In this document: piece by piece, positions 4,268 through 20,203 of the stretch | Layout of the letters: the number at the start of each line of letters is the position of its first letter | How positions within the stretch are numbered: the stretch's first letter is position 1 | Source: Balneolaceae bacterium | GTDB taxonomy: Bacteria; Bacteroidota; Rhodothermia; Balneolales; Balneolaceae | Assembly: GCA_034521495.1 (NCBI GenBank) | Contig: JAXHMK010000002.1 | Location: 1 to 64,000, forward strand | Length of the DNA: 64,000 nucleotides | Direction of reading: 5' to 3' | The notes under the pieces: generated by a model | The model's input: the letters and a program-made list of their open reading frames with translations, nothing else | Told to the model about the DNA's origin: nothing | Databases searched by the model: none | Translations under genes and position numbers: made by a program

Positions 4268-5327
4268 TCTCTGAAACCGGCAGATAGGATCTGTAATTCT
4301 CTTTCTCAAGAAGATTTTCAAATTTGAATACCTTGTGATGATTTGTTGCCAGTTCAAGAAGAAGATCAACCAAATTGGAGGTATCGGCAATTTCGGAAAG
4401 CTGAACCGCAGGTGTATGATCAACCCAGTTTTTTATGATACTGACAAAAGACTCATCAATTTTCCGAATGGTTTGAACGCCCATTTGTTGTAAAGCCGCT
4501 GCATTGCAATATTGTTCGTATTGATTTGAGATGGGGATAACCAACAGCTTTTTGCCAAGAAACATCGCCTCAGCACAGGTTTCAAATCCGGCTCCGGTAA
4601 TCACCCCAAGACTGGTTTTCATACTGTCTAAAAACGGTTTATTTCCAACCGGGTTGATGCTCACATTCATCACAGAGTAGGAGTTTTTACAGCTTGGCGA
4701 AAAAATATGCCACTCAACCCGTGGAATATGCAGAAACTTCCGAAGTAATAGTTGATGATCAAAAGCGGGAAGATACACAGTTACATGGTCTCCGTTTTTG
4801 GTTGATAGTGATCGTACATCGCGGCGAATAATAGGAGGAAGTATGTACGAATCATACCGCTTAAAATGAAAACCAATTGGGGCTGAGCAGGGTGCAAAAT
4901 GTTTTAGAATTTGTTCTCCAATCACAGATTTTTTAGCCGGGCGCGGAGAGTTAGGCGAGATGAATGAAGCCTGATGACTAAGCGCAACCGAAAACACATT
5001 TTTCTGTTGAGAAGCCCAGGCTGTTACCGGTTCAAAATCTGAAATGATCAGATCGTAATCTTGCGCATTCATAGTACTAATATCGCGGACAAATGTGATC
5101 GGCTTAAGATTGAGGGCTGTTTTTAAATAAGAAACACTTCCTTCTGAATCATACGAAAGGCTTATTCCTCTTTTTTGAATCACTTCAATATTTTCAAGTT
5201 TCATATTGCAGTTATAGCCGCTTACCAGTACATCTACATTCGCTTTTTCAGATAATATGGGTATGATTTCTCGTGCCCGGCTAATGTGACCATGACCGGT
5301 TCCCTGGATTCCATAAAGTATGTTCAT
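4257..5327 (-). CDS. Glycosyltransferase, GT1/GT28-like (MurG-fold)
   Basis: 356 residues. The N-terminus MNILYGIQGTGHGHISRA is the glycine-rich acceptor-domain loop of GT-B enzymes. The C-terminal half has the nucleotide-sugar region GVITGAGFETCAEAMFLGKK followed by PISNQYEQYCNA, matching the UDP-sugar binding segment of MurG/MGT-type enzymes. Known relatives transfer a sugar to a lipid or cell-envelope acceptor. The actual donor and acceptor are unknown. It overlaps the preceding LpxH-like gene by four bases (ATGA-type coupling), so the pair is probably co-translated and works on the same envelope lipid. Confidence 0.8.
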   Translation of the reverse strand: MNILYGIQGTGHGHISRAREIIPILSEKANVDVLVSGYNCNMKLENIEVIQKRGISLSYDSEGSVSYLKTALNLKPITFVRDISTMNAQDYDLIISDFEPVTAWASQQKNVFSVALSHQASFISPNSPRPAKKSVIGEQILKHFAPCSAPIGFHFKRYDSYILPPIIRRDVRSLSTKNGDHVTVYLPAFDHQLLLRKFLHIPRVEWHIFSPSCKNSYSVMNVSINPVGNKPFLDSMKTSLGVITGAGFETCAEAMFLGKKLLVIPISNQYEQYCNAAALQQMGVQTIRKIDESFVSIIKNWVDHTPAVQLSEIADTSNLVDLLLELATNHHKVFKFENLLEKENYRSYLPVSEIMH

Positions 5328-6139
5328 TTGATAAGAATCTCTGAATTTCGCCGGTGAGAGCGGATTAATTTTTCTATACGTTCGGATTGAACAAAATCTT
5401 CTTCTCTAAATTTGAACATGCTCCACTCATTTCCGTCGTACTCCAGGGCGGTAAGATTTTCAATCCAATCGCCGGAGTTCATATATATTACTGAACCTTT
5501 TTCGTTCTCGTATCCCCGAATTTTGGGTTGGTGGATATGACCACAGATTACATAATCGTATCCCTGTTCAATGGCCAGTTCTATGGCAGTTGTTTCAAAA
5601 TCTTCAATAAAACGAACAGCTTTTTTTACACTGTCTTTTATTTTTTTAGAAAGAGAGAATTTACCTCGACCTGTTTTTTCTGTGATTTTATTAATGGCAC
5701 GATTCAACAAAATGAGCAGATCGTAGCCTTTTCCTCCAATTCTGGCAATCCATTTACTGTGTTTCATGGTGATGTCAAAAATATCCCCGTGGAAAACCCA
5801 GACCTTTTCACCATTTAACTCTAAAACCAGTTTGTCCCGAATAAACAATGGCCCGAGCTGCAGGCTGGATACTTTTCTGAGAATTTCATCGTGGTTGCCG
5901 GTGAGGTAGTAAATGTCGGTTCCGTTGGTCATCATGGTCAGCATGGTTCGCAAAACCATCATGTGCGATTCCGGCCAGTAATACTTTCTGAAATTCCAAA
6001 CATCTACAAAATCACCATTCAGGATTATGATTTTTGGATCAATGGAATTCAAATATTGTAAAAGTTCGAGGGCGTGGCATCCTACTGTTCCCAGGTGAAT
6101 GTCTGACAAGACAACGATATCGAGCGGTTTTTTTACCAT
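5324..6139 (-). CDS. Calcineurin-like metallophosphoesterase, UDP-2,3-diacylglucosamine diphosphatase-like
   Basis: 271 residues with all dimetal phosphoesterase motifs in order: SDIHLG (D13, H15), NGDFVDVW, LTGNHDE, VFHGD and CGHIHQP. Its best-known relatives are LpxH-type enzymes of lipid A synthesis, but many Bacteroidota carry broader LpxH-like paralogues, so the lpxH symbol is not assigned. Coupled by overlap to a GT-B glycosyltransferase, suggesting a lipid modification step. An alternative is a general phosphoesterase. Confident on fold, not on substrate. Confidence 0.82.
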   Translation of the reverse strand: MVKKPLDIVVLSDIHLGTVGCHALELLQYLNSIDPKIIILNGDFVDVWNFRKYYWPESHMMVLRTMLTMMTNGTDIYYLTGNHDEILRKVSSLQLGPLFIRDKLVLELNGEKVWVFHGDIFDITMKHSKWIARIGGKGYDLLILLNRAINKITEKTGRGKFSLSKKIKDSVKKAVRFIEDFETTAIELAIEQGYDYVICGHIHQPKIRGYENEKGSVIYMNSGDWIENLTALEYDGNEWSMFKFREEDFVQSERIEKLIRSHRRNSEILIK

Positions 6140-6772
6140 AACAGATGATTGTTTATGGGTAATAAAACCATCTAATATTATTTGTAGATGTGCCTATTGT
6201 TAGTTTTTAATGATCAGATTGTTAAGAAATCATTTCGGATGATACCTTAGCGGGTATTTGGAAGTCGGTAAGTCGGGGCACAAGTGACGCTTCGCTTAAC
6301 ACTTGAGCCAGTCGGGAGTTTATATCTTTGTGAGGATAGCGAAGCAATCTCCTGGCTTGACAACAAAAGGTAGATTGCCGCGGTCATTTCACTTCCTCAC
6401 AATGACTTTTCTACTTGCTCCGAAGGTCCTCCTTCGGAACATTGCGTCTGGTAGCTCCGCTTCTGGCAAAAACCAGACTGGATAAAGTGACGTTTTGCTT
6501 AACACTTTCGCTAGTGTTACAATCTTTAAAAAAGTTTAGTCAATCAGGTAGCCACAAAAACACGAAATCACAAAATTATTTGTGTTTTGGTGCTTTTGTG
6601 GCCTCTTCTCAGGTGGGCTATTAAATTTATTTATTGATCCTGACACTATATTAATTTACTGGTTACTACACTATCGGCGGTATTTGTTTGAATCATTTGT
6701 TACAAGCAATTCTAAATTTAATTGTATTATTGACCAAAGTTTTAAATCGGAATTAAAAAAATGGATTAGATC
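6140..6772. other. Gene-free stretch with decayed palindromic repeats
   Basis: No convincing coding sequence. It contains an imperfect inverted repeat at 6329-6401 (arms around GCGAAGCAATCT and AGATTGCC...CCTCACA), a perfect small hairpin at 6419-6438 (TCCGAAGG/CCTTCGGA), and a 21-base word (GTGACG.TT.GCTTAACACTT) present twice at 6284-6304 and 6487-6507. Short open frames here lie over the repeats and look spurious. Confidence 0.55.
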
Positions 6773-15591: not shown

Positions 15592-16257
15592 CTACATATT
15601 CATCGATCGTATACCAATCAGAGATTGGATAAACTTGTTTTCGGGGACTTTAAGGTTAGGATATTGCTTAGTGTTTATTGAACAAAAATCGATAATACGA
15701 AGTTGTTCAGATTTCGATGAGTTCGAAAAATCATACCGCAGACACTCTTTCAAGTACCCAATATTCAGCCAGGTAAACGGATTGTTGAACCTGGAATAGA
15801 GAGCTAACCATGTTGGGTAGTCCTCAAATGGTATCTCCTTGTTGGGGTCTGCTTGTGATAAATTATCAGCTTTCTGAACATCAAGCTGGTAGCGTTCTGC
15901 ATATTTGTAAATCATTGAAATTGCATCCTGGTCATCGCTATCTATCACTTTTTTCCAGGTAGAATTGCCGGTAAATTCATTTTTCTCTCCCGTTCGGATT
16001 GCAGCTACAATTTCGGGACTCTCGAGATTTGGAAAACTTTGAATATGAAAGTTCAGATGCCCTTTTTCAATTTTTTTAGAAAGTGCATTTAAAACCTGTC
16101 CTACAGCAATAACTGAGCATCGGTAGGATTCATTTTGTTTCAAGTAAGCAGGCAAAATGGAAAGTTCAATTACATTGCCCGACAAATGATACTTCCAGCA
16201 CTCTGTTTTATAGAGATTCGATTTTGCCCGTATCTCATCAATCCATTTTTTTAACAT
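15592..16257 (-). CDS. Hypothetical protein, distantly similar to Acg-type nitroreductase fold
   Basis: About 221 residues from the ATG at 16257. A TTG at 16284 would overlap the preceding gene. I do not recognise it with certainty. The order CWKYHLSGNVIEL, then VIAVGQVLNAL, FPNLESPEIVAAI and WLNIGYLKECL mirrors landmarks of Acg-like nitroreductases (QPWRF.V, SCGAAL.NL, WLRAGQAL), but the usual PSxHN flavin motif is not evident, so it may have lost FMN binding. It is the last gene of a three-gene run with two YceI proteins, seven bases after the previous stop. Role inferred only from context. Confidence 0.7.
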   Translation of the reverse strand: MLKKWIDEIRAKSNLYKTECWKYHLSGNVIELSILPAYLKQNESYRCSVIAVGQVLNALSKKIEKGHLNFHIQSFPNLESPEIVAAIRTGEKNEFTGNSTWKKVIDSDDQDAISMIYKYAERYQLDVQKADNLSQADPNKEIPFEDYPTWLALYSRFNNPFTWLNIGYLKECLRYDFSNSSKSEQLRIIDFCSINTKQYPNLKVPENKFIQSLIGIRSMNM

Positions 16258-16264
16258 CTCTCTG

Positions 16265-16900
16265 CTAATTTTGCGGCTCGGCAATCAGATCAAAGTTTAC
16301 GGTAAGTTCCTCATTTGCCCTGATCAATCCCATTAAAGCTGTTGGCGGTTCAACGCCAAAATCAGTCATGTTAATAGTAGTTTTCCCGACTGCACGAACA
16401 CGCTGTTGATTTATATAGTATGCCTCTGTATTAAAGTAAATCTCCTTGGTTGTACCGGCTACGGTTAACAATCCATGAACTCTTAACTCGAATCCGTCAT
16501 TCCTGTTCTGAGGCTCACTTAAGAGGGTTGTATTTTGATAGAGAAAGGTAATTTCAGGGAATTTTTCGGCCTGTAATGCTTTTTGCAGGTCCTTATTCAT
16601 ACTCTGTTTTCCACATTCAAAGCTATCCACCTCAATATCAATTTTTAAGAGAAGCAGTTCGCTGGATGCATTAATAACAGATGGTGTCTCTTCCACCTCA
16701 TTGGGCACAGTTGCTTCACCCGAGTAGTTTTCTGCATAACACTCAAACTGATTGACATTTGAACTCCCCTGAATCCAAAGCCTACTCTCGTTAATAGGAA
16801 CAAACGTGGATTGAAATGAAAAAACTTCCCCTGTACTCATCAGTATGAAACTGATAAGAAATAAGCTTTTTAATAATGATATGGAGAGGAAGTTTTTCAT
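16265..16900 (-). CDS. YceI family periplasmic protein (first of two, nearer the hypothetical gene)
   Basis: 211 residues with a signal peptide (MKNFLSISLLKSLFLISFIL, cleavage probably after VFS). The body has YceI landmarks: LWIQGSSNVNQFECYA, KFPEITF, VHGLLTVAGTTKEI and TTINMTDFGVEPPTALMGLI. YceI proteins are lipocalin-like barrels that bind isoprenoid chains such as quinones in the periplasm. Located 13 bases after another YceI gene of the same operon, with which it shares the DFG.(D/E)PPTA ending, so the two are probably an old duplication. Confidence 0.88.
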   Translation of the reverse strand: MKNFLSISLLKSLFLISFILMSTGEVFSFQSTFVPINESRLWIQGSSNVNQFECYAENYSGEATVPNEVEETPSVINASSELLLLKIDIEVDSFECGKQSMNKDLQKALQAEKFPEITFLYQNTTLLSEPQNRNDGFELRVHGLLTVAGTTKEIYFNTEAYYINQQRVRAVGKTTINMTDFGVEPPTALMGLIRANEELTVNFDLIAEPQN

Positions 16901-16913
16901 TGCTTTCTGTTAA

Positions 16914-17513
16914 CTACTTACTGAAAGATACGTCAAATTCTATTCTAATTTCGTCTCTGGAACGAATTGTACCAAAAACTGCGGTAGGAGGATCAATTCC
17001 AAAGTCCGTCATGAGCAGTTCTTTTTTTCCCGTAAATTGGATGCCATCATCAATCAGGTTTGCAGTTACTTGCATATCAACCGGATTTTCAGTTCCTGCG
17101 GCTGTTATTACACCCGAAGCTGTAACCAATAGAGAACCATCCTGTTGTTCTGTTATATCTGTAACGTTATTCAATTCAAAAGTAATGTTGGGATAGTCAT
17201 CTTCTTTTAGGTATTTGTGGAGATTTTTGGTCAATCCATCTGATTCAGCTTCAATTTTTTCAACAGGTATTGTCAGAGATAGGTTTTGAAATGCGTCCGC
17301 TGTTAAACTTTCTGCGGTTAAATTTTCAATGTTTTGCAAAGTCAGCGTACCATCGACTTGATTTATAGCTGCATCCCAGGATTTAATGTTGGCTTCCCCA
17401 TACAAATGCATGTTTGGTGAGTCCTGGATATTAAGCTGAACATCCTGTCCTATAGACACACCTGCTGTGAGGAGGAGTACTGCTAAAAGGGATATAATTT
17501 TTTGAGTAGTCAT
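16914..17513 (-). CDS. YceI family periplasmic protein (second copy, operon leader)
   Basis: 199 residues: signal peptide MTTQKIISLLAVLLLTAGVS ending before GQDVQLN, then the YceI barrel with NMHLYGEANIKSWDA, YPNITFELN, ASGVITAAGT and LLMTDFGIDPPTAVFG. Likely binds an isoprenoid or quinone-like ligand in the periplasm. It heads the YceI-YceI-nitroreductase-like run. A strong terminator-shaped hairpin ends about 15 bases before its start codon (17529-17560), which is unusual and may control its expression. Confidence 0.9.
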   Translation of the reverse strand: MTTQKIISLLAVLLLTAGVSIGQDVQLNIQDSPNMHLYGEANIKSWDAAINQVDGTLTLQNIENLTAESLTADAFQNLSLTIPVEKIEAESDGLTKNLHKYLKEDDYPNITFELNNVTDITEQQDGSLLVTASGVITAAGTENPVDMQVTANLIDDGIQFTGKKELLMTDFGIDPPTAVFGTIRSRDEIRIEFDVSFSK

Positions 17514-17560: not shown

Positions 17561-17832
17561 GGGGTTTATTTAATGTTATTTAGAAACTTACAACGGTTTC
17601 AATACTAATTCCGTCAAATTCAGGGCTGTCTTTTGTTTATTAATCATGGAATAAATATGGGGAGAAAGAGAAATAAGAATAAGGGGACTTAATCTGATTA
17701 GGTACTAAGGGCATCCCCTATGGCAGTAGGGATTTCCCCTAAAAGACGTAAGTAAGAAGTGAGATAATAAGTGACGAATAGTCAATCAAAGGTGGTTTAA
17801 TTCCCCGATCCTCTGGGTCAGAAAAAAGATAA

Positions 17833-18002
17833 AAGTCCCCCTTCGAAGGGGGAAGCGAACGGAGTGAGCTGGGGGATGATGTTCTGAGTTTTGAATTGAC
17901 CAAGTCTTGGTTCTGAAGCATTACACCCCTCCCGGCTAAAGCCGTACTCCCCTCAAGGGGAGATTGATCATCCCCCATTGCCCCCTTCGAAGGGGGACAC
18001 TT
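17833..18002. repeat. Palindromic element, family E
   Basis: AAGTCCCCCTTCGAAGGGGG at the left is matched at the right by CCCCCTTCGAAGGGGGACAC. GGGGGATGATG and CATCCCCC words add inner pairing, and CCCCTC.AGGGGAG forms another internal stem. Part of the same element is present at 14607-14656. A 113-codon open frame over it (17739-18080) is rejected as spurious. Confidence 0.6.
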
Positions 18003-18041
18003 CACAATAAGTGCATAAATTGTTAAAAAAATTTGGATTAT

Positions 18042-18082
18042 AAGTTGATACCTCGTGGGCTCTGCCCCGAGGTAGTTCATTA
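18042..18082. repeat. 41-base repeat family F, copy 2
   Basis: Same as 15537-15577 except for two bases in the loop (CCCC in place of CCAT region). It lies 15 bases beyond the response-regulator stop codon on the minus strand. Confidence 0.6.
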
Positions 18083-18096
18083 AAAAGATAATGCTG

Positions 18097-18753
18097 TTAA
18101 TTGGCGGATTCCTCTACCCATTTAACAGCGTGGCGCATCAATTCGTTTGCAGTATCTACTTGTAGTTTGTCTTTGATGTTAGCCCGATGAGATTCCACTG
18201 TTTTTACTGAGATGTGTAGTTTTTCACCAATATCTCTTGTGGATAGTCCCTTTCCGGTCAATTCAAAAACTTCCAATTCACGGTCGCTGAGCAGATCAAG
18301 TGGATTGTCGCTTTTTGCTGAATTTCCTGAAGCCATTTTCATAATCAATTTTGTGCCAATACTGTCACTCAGGTAAATACCTCCCTTCAGAATTTGCCGA
18401 ATGGCAGTGATCATAACTTCTGCGGCTTCCAGCTTCATCAGGTATCCTTTTGCTCCGGCACGGATAGCACGTTCGGCATACAGCTCTTCATCGTGGCGGG
18501 ATACAACCAATATTTTCAGATCCGGCATCTGATGCAGTACATTTTTAATCAGCTCAATACCGTTCATACCGGGAAGCGAAATATCAACCACCGCAACATC
18601 CGGTTTTAATTTGATAATTTCGGTTAATCCCTCTTCTGCACTTTCGGCCTGGCCGCATACTTCAAAACCCATCTCTTTGTCAATGGTCATCGCCAGGCCT
18701 TTTCTCATAAGTGGGTGGTCATCGACAATGTAAATCTGTTTGTTATCAGCCAT
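18097..18753 (-). CDS. NarL/FixJ-type response regulator
   Basis: 218 residues. The receiver domain has the acidic pair D11/D12 (IVDDHP), the phosphoacceptor D57 in AVVDISLPG, and the conserved late lysine in KGYLMKLEA. A LuxR-type helix-turn-helix occupies the C-terminus (LSDRELEVFELTGKGLSTRDIGEKL cut here as the DREL..V...GLS motif, then VKTVESHRANI). Follows the sensor kinase gene by 25 bases, so the two form one two-component system. Confidence 0.93.
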   Translation of the reverse strand: MADNKQIYIVDDHPLMRKGLAMTIDKEMGFEVCGQAESAEEGLTEIIKLKPDVAVVDISLPGMNGIELIKNVLHQMPDLKILVVSRHDEELYAERAIRAGAKGYLMKLEAAEVMITAIRQILKGGIYLSDSIGTKLIMKMASGNSAKSDNPLDLLSDRELEVFELTGKGLSTRDIGEKLHISVKTVESHRANIKDKLQVDTANELMRHAVKWVEESAN

Positions 18754-18778
18754 GGTTTTTTATTCAGTTTATAGATCG

Positions 18779-20203
18779 TTAAGAAGATAAGATTTTATAT
18801 GATGAACCCACGGATAAAAGAGTTACAATAATGGCAGCTCCGCCAAGACTACTGTTTGCAATGTCGAGATTAGCACCGATCAGCCGAGCCCGGAATTTCA
18901 TGATTCGAACGCCAAGCCCCTTGTGTTGATCCCAATCGGGTGCAAACCCGGTTCCATTATCCTCAATTTTAATTGTAAGCTTGGTATCATCAGACTGCAT
19001 ATCAACCTGTACCTTCGAGGCATTTCCATGTTTTACGGCATTGCTGGTAGCCTCCTGTACAATCCTAAAGAGATGTGTGAGGCTGGTGGGGTCATCAAAT
19101 TGAATGTTCAGGGTATTCTTTAACTCACACTCAATATTAAACAGTCGTTCTGCATTCGAGGCTAAACGCTGCAGTGCTGCCACTAATCCGCTGCTGTCAA
19201 GCTCAACCGGTACCAGGTTTCTGGATAGCCCCCTGGCATATTCATCAGCTTCTTTCAGCAAATCTGTTATTTCATCTACATCTTCTGCAAGGGGGTGGTC
19301 TTCCTCTTTCAGTGTAGCGGCTATGTTTTTATTGATAAGTGTAATCCCGGTCAGCATTTGCCCGAGGCCGTCGTGCAGATCCTGACCAATACGGTGGCGT
19401 TCATGTTCACTTACCCGAAGTACTTCCTGTTCGAGCCTGCGCTGCTCGGAGATATCGCGAATAATTCCCGTATAGAGCCGCTGATCATTTACGTTAACCT
19501 CACTTACGGCAAGATACATCGGGAATGTTGAACCATCTTTTCTTTTACCCGTAACTTCCCGGCCTATTCCAATTATTTTTCGAACACCGGTTTCATGGTA
19601 GTTGTTTATATAATCATCGTGCTCACGCCGATAGGGTTGCGGCATCAGCATTTTTACGTTCTCCCCAATTACTTCAGAGCTTTTGTACTGAAAAAGCTCT
19701 TCGGCCGCCTGGTTAAATGTGCGTATTAAGCCATGGTCGTTAATCGTAATAATTGCATCTACCGTTGTTTTTAGAATGCTTCGGGCACGGGCCTCACTTT
19801 CACGAAGTTTCTGTTCGATGAGAAATTGCCCCTCTTTATTACGTGCCATTTTTTCGGCAAATGCAAGCCGTACATCCAGCCGTTGTTCATCGTAAAGAGA
19901 TTCTATGATATACTGATCAATATCTGCATCGATTAATTTGGGAAGAAGATCGGTCTGATCTTGAGTTATTACAGCAAAAATAGTGTATTTACGCCCATAT
20001 TCCCGCGCTCGTACCAATTTGCAGAATTGAATGACATCGTCTGAATAGTCACTGATAATAATCAGTGAGATATTATTCTTTTTAAGAGTTTCTAAAGCCT
20101 CATTGGTAGGTTCTGAAACAGTTATTTCGTGGTATCGCCTCTCCAGTGCATTAACCAATAGGTTTCGAACCTCTTTATTAAATCCTGTAACCAGTGTGTT
20201 CAT
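18779..20203 (-). CDS. Sensor histidine kinase with FixL-like PAS domain (HisKA_3 type)
   Basis: About 474 residues from the ATG at 20203; a TTG at 20245 is an alternative. Residues here are numbered from that TTG. No membrane segment is visible, so it is cytoplasmic. Residues 15-130 resemble a degenerate receiver domain. Residues about 150-270 are a PAS domain very like FixL, with MLMPQPYRREHDDYI, RKIIGIGREVTGKRKDGSTF and MYLAVSEV. H209 aligns with the haem-binding histidine of FixL and R229 with its distal arginine. The HisKA_3 phosphoacceptor is H291 in QDLHDGLGQ, followed by a HATPase_c domain with NAVKHG and DNGTGF. Pairs with the downstream NarL-type regulator. Confidence 0.9.
   Translation of the reverse strand: MNTLVTGFNKEVRNLLVNALERRYHEITVSEPTNEALETLKKNNISLIIISDYSDDVIQFCKLVRAREYGRKYTIFAVITQDQTDLLPKLIDADIDQYIIESLYDEQRLDVRLAFAEKMARNKEGQFLIEQKLRESEARARSILKTTVDAIITINDHGLIRTFNQAAEELFQYKSSEVIGENVKMLMPQPYRREHDDYINNYHETGVRKIIGIGREVTGKRKDGSTFPMYLAVSEVNVNDQRLYTGIIRDISEQRRLEQEVLRVSEHERHRIGQDLHDGLGQMLTGITLINKNIAATLKEEDHPLAEDVDEITDLLKEADEYARGLSRNLVPVELDSSGLVAALQRLASNAERLFNIECELKNTLNIQFDDPTSLTHLFRIVQEATSNAVKHGNASKVQVDMQSDDTKLTIKIEDNGTGFAPDWDQHKGLGVRIMKFRARLIGANLDIANSSLGGAAIIVTLLSVGSSYKILSS

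Follow-up and report, generated by a model that had tools for sequence, protein, structure and literature searches.

A kinase-regulator gene pair in a Balneolaceae genome is likely to form a soluble haem-b two-component system, one that senses oxygen or redox state and acts through palindromic promoter sites on a neighbouring envelope operon. In this nitrogenase-free bacterium its role is probably that of a general sensor of low oxygen or redox state. The pair lies in positions 1 to 64,000 of contig JAXHMK010000002.1 (‘the window’, the whole 64,000-nucleotide stretch that was analysed), part of a 4.57 Mb genome near Rhodohalobacter; the host is a salt-loving bacterium of the marine Balneolota. 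This reading is favoured because the PAS domain of the kinase shares approximately 50% identity with that of FixL and is predicted to superpose on it, because its pocket is invariant, and because the catalytic motifs of both kinase and regulator are intact. It is favoured further by the palindromic boxes, which occur in promoters of the first gene of the operon (c3), accompany that operon in a genome where it lies apart from the kinase (G019), coincide with the kinase in every genome with a perfect copy, and recur, in perfect or strong form, before an oxidase subunit II gene. Thousands of FixL-type PAS domains are on record (PMC10468136). The novelty lies in finding such a domain in Balneolota joined to HisKA_3 and a pseudo-receiver, together with, on sequence comparison, a conserved operon and a candidate operator common to a paralogous system that loses the haem pocket. 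The literature searched yielded no description of an oxygen-sensing two-component system from this phylum, and nothing specific on a kinase-regulator system in Balneolota or Rhodohalobacter.

Table 1. Features of the kinase-regulator locus, in window coordinates.
Feature	Position	Strand	Evidence
Sensor histidine kinase, 474 aa (pseudo-receiver, FixL-type PAS, HisKA_3, HATPase_c)	18779..20203	-	
N-terminal pseudo-receiver, residues 1-120	19844..20203	-	AF2 fold, PDB matches; Pfam PDE8A_N 6.7e-5
FixL-type PAS domain, residues 134-260	19424..19804	-	Pfam, phmmer, NCBIfam, structure match
H195 codon, equivalent to BjFixL haem ligand H200	19619..19621	-	gapless alignment
N201 codon, position of BjFixL R206 / SmFixL R200, differs from FixL	19601..19603	-	alignment; role: PMC10765370
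R215 codon, equivalent to BjFixL distal arginine R220	19559..19561	-	gapless alignment
HisKA_3 dimerisation/phosphoacceptor domain	19202..19402	-	Pfam 1.1e-11
Phospho-histidine H277 codon, in DLHDGLGQ	19373..19375	-	HDxxGQ H-box
HATPase_c catalytic domain	18818..19078	-	Pfam 2.4e-11
NarL/FixJ-type response regulator	18097..18753	-	Pfam Response_reg 1.9e-25, GerE 3.6e-16
Multi-copy repeat between regulator and boxes	17784..18081	-	about 50 full or partial genome matches
Tandem palindromic boxes, candidate operator: 17725-17743 TTTAGGGGAAATCCCTACT and 17704-17722	17704..17743	-	
c3 remnant, C-terminal end ...FDGISIETVVSF*	17583..17630	-	tblastn of c3 orthologues
YceI-family secreted protein, first gene past the boxes	16914..17513	-	Pfam YceI 3e-16
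Second YceI-family secreted protein	16265..16900	-	Pfam YceI 3.6e-15
c5, last gene of the conserved cluster, remote homologue of nitroreductase-like c17	15592..16284	-	HHalign

Both genes lie where the original prediction had placed them (kinase from a Met at 20203 to 18779, regulator from 18753 to 18097, minus strand). A kinase start at an in-frame TTG 42 bases upstream was dropped as unsupported, since orthologue alignments begin at residues 9–15. The kinase had been called cytoplasmic, and it does appear soluble: no transmembrane segment was seen in it, the Kyte-Doolittle maximum over 19 residues being 1.63, in the ATPase domain. The degenerate receiver anticipated ahead of the PAS domain is recovered as a receiver fold by AlphaFold2 (AF2), which modelled the first 125 residues alone with a pLDDT of 92 as a complete (beta-alpha)5 fold; its top PDB hits were the CheY, PhoB and MtrA receivers. 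Because the acidic pair of this fold is replaced by G7/F8 and the conserved Lys by E101 in nearly all orthologues, it is here termed a pseudo-receiver; the acceptor-position D52 is retained in 18/24 orthologues. The domain is specific to family-level orthologues, the PAS-HisKA_3 core being preceded in other families of the order by a GAF domain or another N-terminal region. That core, which the original prediction did not mention, fits the HisKA_3 (NarX/DesK-like) definition, with an HDxxGQ H-box and HATPase_c. The partner is the NarL-type regulator expected, consisting of a receiver with its phosphorylation residues intact (DD, D57, K) and a GerE/LuxR helix-turn-helix (HTH), as in NarL/FixJ-type proteins.

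The proposed closeness of the PAS domain to rhizobial FixL stands well beyond chance: the best phmmer matches among solved structures were FixL chains (E 8e-35), followed by DosP (E 4e-17). In the AF2 model of the kinase (41 homologues, mean pLDDT 82.8), Foldseek superposed the predicted PAS domain on BjFixL haem domains at an rmsd of 0.6–1.1 Å (TM 0.94–0.97, 45–50% identity). The two residues singled out beforehand, the histidine of RREHDDYI and the arginine of IIGIGR, fall without gaps on the haem ligand and the distal, O2-contacting arginine of BjFixL, respectively. As judged from the model and the alignment, the domain has the fold and F-alpha histidine of the FixL/DosP-type haem PAS domains (cluster 3); 60% of that cluster retain this histidine, the residue on which haem binding chiefly depends (PMC10468136). 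The same two residues are present in DosP, in six FixL sequences (plasmid FixL) and in Burkholderia/Cupriavidus relatives; whereas the haem-binding FixL and DosP carry both, five other PAS domains of the window's own genome, of unknown cofactor, carry neither.

Conservation separates the haem-pocket residues from those of the fold. H195 and R215 are both invariant in 39/39 window-type kinases (Balneolota orthologues from several families), and the pocket-lining I215, I216, Y207 and L236 (BjFixL numbers) are likewise unchanged in 39/39. Another 23 kinases served for comparison, almost all of them paralogues from an Hsp20/SDR/PEP-synthase-like locus; both residues were kept in 11 and lost in 7, with His alone lost in 5 and Arg alone in 0 (Fisher p=0.005 for coupling of the two, kinship ignored). 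The haem-pocket positions I215, I216, Y203 and Y207 relax along with H and R in the paralogues, and the fold positions F176, G217, G224 and L191 remain conserved. Invariant in orthologues and lost in paralogues, H195 and R215 thus behave as functional haem-pocket sites, in keeping with the equivalences originally drawn. That the domain retains FixL fold and residues for structural reasons, empty of haem or with another ligand, is unlikely, its chance being slim: the decay of H and R around an unchanged fold argues against it, as does the presence of both residues in every orthologue except one (L070), although approximately 40% of the FixL/DosP cluster lack the histidine at similar overall conservation, so that the fold can work haem-free (PMC10468136), and a paralogue in the window's own genome has lost both residues and presumably still works. 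The exceptional kinase (G061, 4677-6539), counted among the 23 and window-type by its locus, has lost both haem residues yet keeps the c3-YceI operon, which counts against a haem-based oxygen or redox sensor. Its c3 promoter is without a strong box.

Two positions where the window kinase departs from FixL, R206 to Asn and H214 to Lys, were also counted against the haem-based reading. The former change, which the earlier description had not mentioned, is compatible with haem binding, since SmFixL R200 variants keep haem and CO binding (PMC10765370). The R200A/Q/E/H variants of SmFixL undergo autoxidation in air (PMC10765370), and by analogy N201 leads one to expect a bound haem with possibly more redox-labile iron. 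It lends some support to the main rival to oxygen sensing, to which we allow a modest chance: a haem PAS kinase that responds to NO, hydrogen sulfide or the redox state of its haem, the ferric form being the one that would be active or bind the ligand. Precedents exist in DosS and DosP, which respond to H2S via ferric haem, and in Bacillus licheniformis NreB, a sulfide sensor controlling sqr (PMC9918477). Against it, the distal Arg, whose known role is in O2 binding, is invariant.

Comparison with characterised systems places the pair among several of them. With FixL/FixJ (BjFixL, SmFixL) it shares the PAS domain with proximal His and distal Arg, a two-gene kinase-regulator operon, and a regulator built of a receiver and a GerE/LuxR HTH. 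FixL, however, has HisKA, mostly membrane helices and no pseudo-receiver, whereas the window kinase is soluble, with HisKA_3, a pseudo-receiver and Asn in place of R206. Orthology to FixL was accordingly rejected: the NCBIfam equivalog sens_FixL_Rhizob (NF041777) scored 156.1 bits, confined to the PAS domain, against a curated cut-off of 850; the core matched HisKA_3 (1.1e-11), not HisKA; and nitrogen-fixation context was lacking, a NifH search of the genome returning only weak, short P-loop ATPase matches and nothing convincing. FixL adjoins fixK, cbb3 oxidase and nif genes; the window's genome is without NifH and carries a cbb3-type ccoN, which, together with the candidate regulon described below, fits the suggestion of an oxygen or redox sensor outside nitrogen fixation.

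The DosS/DosT-DosR (DevS-DevR) system of mycobacteria likewise joins a haem sensor (here predicted) on a HisKA_3 kinase to a NarL-type regulator, but DosS/DosT hold haem in a GAF domain and act through a different operator; the window kinase has a FixL-type PAS domain and gave no Pfam match to GAF. The mycobacterial DosR regulon includes Hsp20, USP (universal stress protein) and nitroreductase-like proteins, as does the candidate regulon in Balneolota. NreB/NreC of staphylococci and B. licheniformis also pair a soluble PAS-HisKA_3 kinase with a NarL-type regulator, and use GC-rich palindromic operators in an anaerobic or sulfide response (PMC8139620, PMC9918477). The staphylococcal NreB PAS domain binds a [4Fe-4S] cluster through cysteines; this type was ruled out for the window PAS domain, which is free of cysteine (residues 134-260). 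Burkholderia FixLJ and the B. stagnalis L088 kinase have a FixL-related PAS domain with His and Arg, and the latter has an HDDLGQ H-box like that of HisKA_3 and an adjoining response regulator gene, but both are membrane-bound, without a pseudo-receiver, and only distantly related to the window kinase in their PAS domains. In B. dolosa, low oxygen activates FixLJ in a setting other than nitrogen fixation (PMC5234846). E. coli DosP belongs to the same PAS cluster and carries His and Arg at the matching positions, but is a c-di-GMP phosphodiesterase.

Behind the pair, most orthologues (≥20 loci, spread over three families) have one and the same set of genes: c3, two for YceI proteins and one for a c5, c13 or c17 protein. 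The product of c3 is an outer-membrane-like protein of ~430 aa that belongs to no Pfam family; c5, c13 and c17 form one remote family by HHalign, nitroreductase-like according to weak Pfam matches (Nitroreductase, weakly, for c17). The window keeps only the last codons of c3, and no c3 was found elsewhere in its genome. This deletion, with the promoter boxes retained (17583-17743), adjoins the multi-copy repeat at 17784-18081; an ORF at 17739-18080 was dropped as a gene, lying mostly inside that repeat. Because the boxes outlast the loss of c3, the first gene, they suggest that the candidate operator still serves the YceI genes, the first of which begins ~190-230 bp beyond them, within or just beyond the usual box-c3 distance. 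In G019 the c3-YceI-YceI-c5 operon lies on a different contig from the kinase, and there the box accompanies the operon. YceI proteins are not hypoxia-specific, which was counted against the oxygen or redox reading. In some genomes of one family (f3; loci L060, L062 and L083), genes for HemN (oxygen-independent haem synthesis) and USP stand directly beside the pair.

Alignment of c3 promoters gave tandem palindromes with the consensus TGTAGGG-N5-CCCTACA. Scores of ≥19 were reached by 74% of c3 promoters (n=34) against 0.07% of dinucleotide shuffles, a contrast that describes rather than tests, the score having been built from the consensus of these same promoters in related genomes; this circularity, too, weighs against the preferred reading. 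The two boxes in the window are its two best box sites and the sole tandem match of the whole genome. Across the genus, the tandem pattern was found in 11/28 genomes, mostly at c3 or c3-like promoters (G019 included), compared with 0/28 for a reversed-pattern control. A single-copy pattern with 2 mismatches gave fewer matches than its reversed control and so by itself defines no regulon, for which reason the tandem and perfect forms were used.

The perfect 14-base form occurs in 7/116 genomes of the order, five times at c3, once ahead of the genes for haem-copper oxidase subunits II and I and once ahead of a CheB-like gene. Oxidase promoters carry the box in 4/26 genomes (against 0.6% of shuffles) and CheB/USP loci in 3/20, a sporadic membership that counts against the haem-based reading, as does the lack of a strong match in the ccoN region of the window's own genome. 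The perfect oxidase box (L158, G046:C1, 1-1269) is followed by a short subunit II and a subunit I, possibly ba3-like. A weaker box in the window's genome (L154, G000:C4, 6104-8204) lies upstream of a gene for a CheB-like response regulator/methylesterase and then one for a universal stress protein; in G039 a similar CheB-like gene is accompanied by a perfect box. In R. sulfatireducens, whose kinase is 89% identical to that of the window, one tandem-box match precedes an SQR-DsrC-DsrE operon, as a sulfide-responsive or redox-responsive haem kinase might lead one to expect; that box is found in one genome only, however, the window's genome lacks this SQR, and the boxes at oxidase promoters point instead to O2. 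The operon (L148, G015:C105, 5400-7543) encodes an SQR/FCSD-type FAD-dependent oxidoreductase, DsrC and a DsrE-like protein, and its boxes differ little from those of the window.

The palindromic box is also present in front of hsp20 in the paralogue clusters (56% of hsp20 promoters scored ≥17, against 2% of shuffles) and before c3-like genes in two genomes that yielded only the paralogue kinase (G001 and G008), which raises the question of whether it belongs to another regulator, such as that of the Hsp20 locus alone, with the pair controlling something else. This seems rather improbable: the box is strongest beside the window-type pair in three families, all 7 perfect-box genomes carry that pair (hypergeometric p 3e-4, kinship ignored), and the two regulators are paralogues that may share a site. 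Autoregulation through the box was rejected, there being no box upstream of the kinase, where only a TTAGATTC-like block is conserved, and its absence there was set against the preferred reading as well.

A soluble haem-based sensor acting on the envelope operon would work as follows. H195 would bind haem and R215 would touch bound O2, as R220 does in FixL, and the O2-bound state would hold the HisKA_3 kinase off. On loss of O2 or a change in haem state, the dimeric PAS-HisKA_3 coiled coil would free H277 for autophosphorylation, from which the phosphate would move to D57 of the regulator; the direction of switching, off with O2 and on without, is borrowed from FixL and DosS. Bound to TGTAGGG-N5-CCCTACA, the regulator would activate the neighbouring genes (outer-membrane-like, YceI, YceI, nitroreductase-like) and, in some genomes, also haem-copper oxidase, sulfide oxidation or Hsp20/USP stress genes. 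The pseudo-receiver may be an additional, phosphorylation-independent input or a docking module. We would also entertain, tentatively and as the less probable case, a joint scheme in which two paralogous pairs, one with the haem pocket kept and the other with it lost, feed one operator, so that haem-gas and haem-free signals would be integrated, with the pseudo-receiver as a third input, at promoters of envelope, stress and respiratory genes.

The window kinase places a predicted FixL haem pocket on a NarX/DesK-type kinase, and with a candidate operator and target operon named, the path from gas to promoter becomes testable with few proteins. YceI-family proteins and the outer-membrane-like c3 family would gain a physiological context. 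Paralogues without the haem residues offer natural negative controls for the shift of a PAS domain from haem sensing to another signal. The paralogue kinase of the window's own genome (L002, 1420-2829; G000:C4:344261-345232) has a FixL-type PAS domain from which both haem residues are lost, and its first PAS domain includes a run rich in cysteines (VLCDCKMPFKCLLERC), a possible site for a metal or Fe-S centre.
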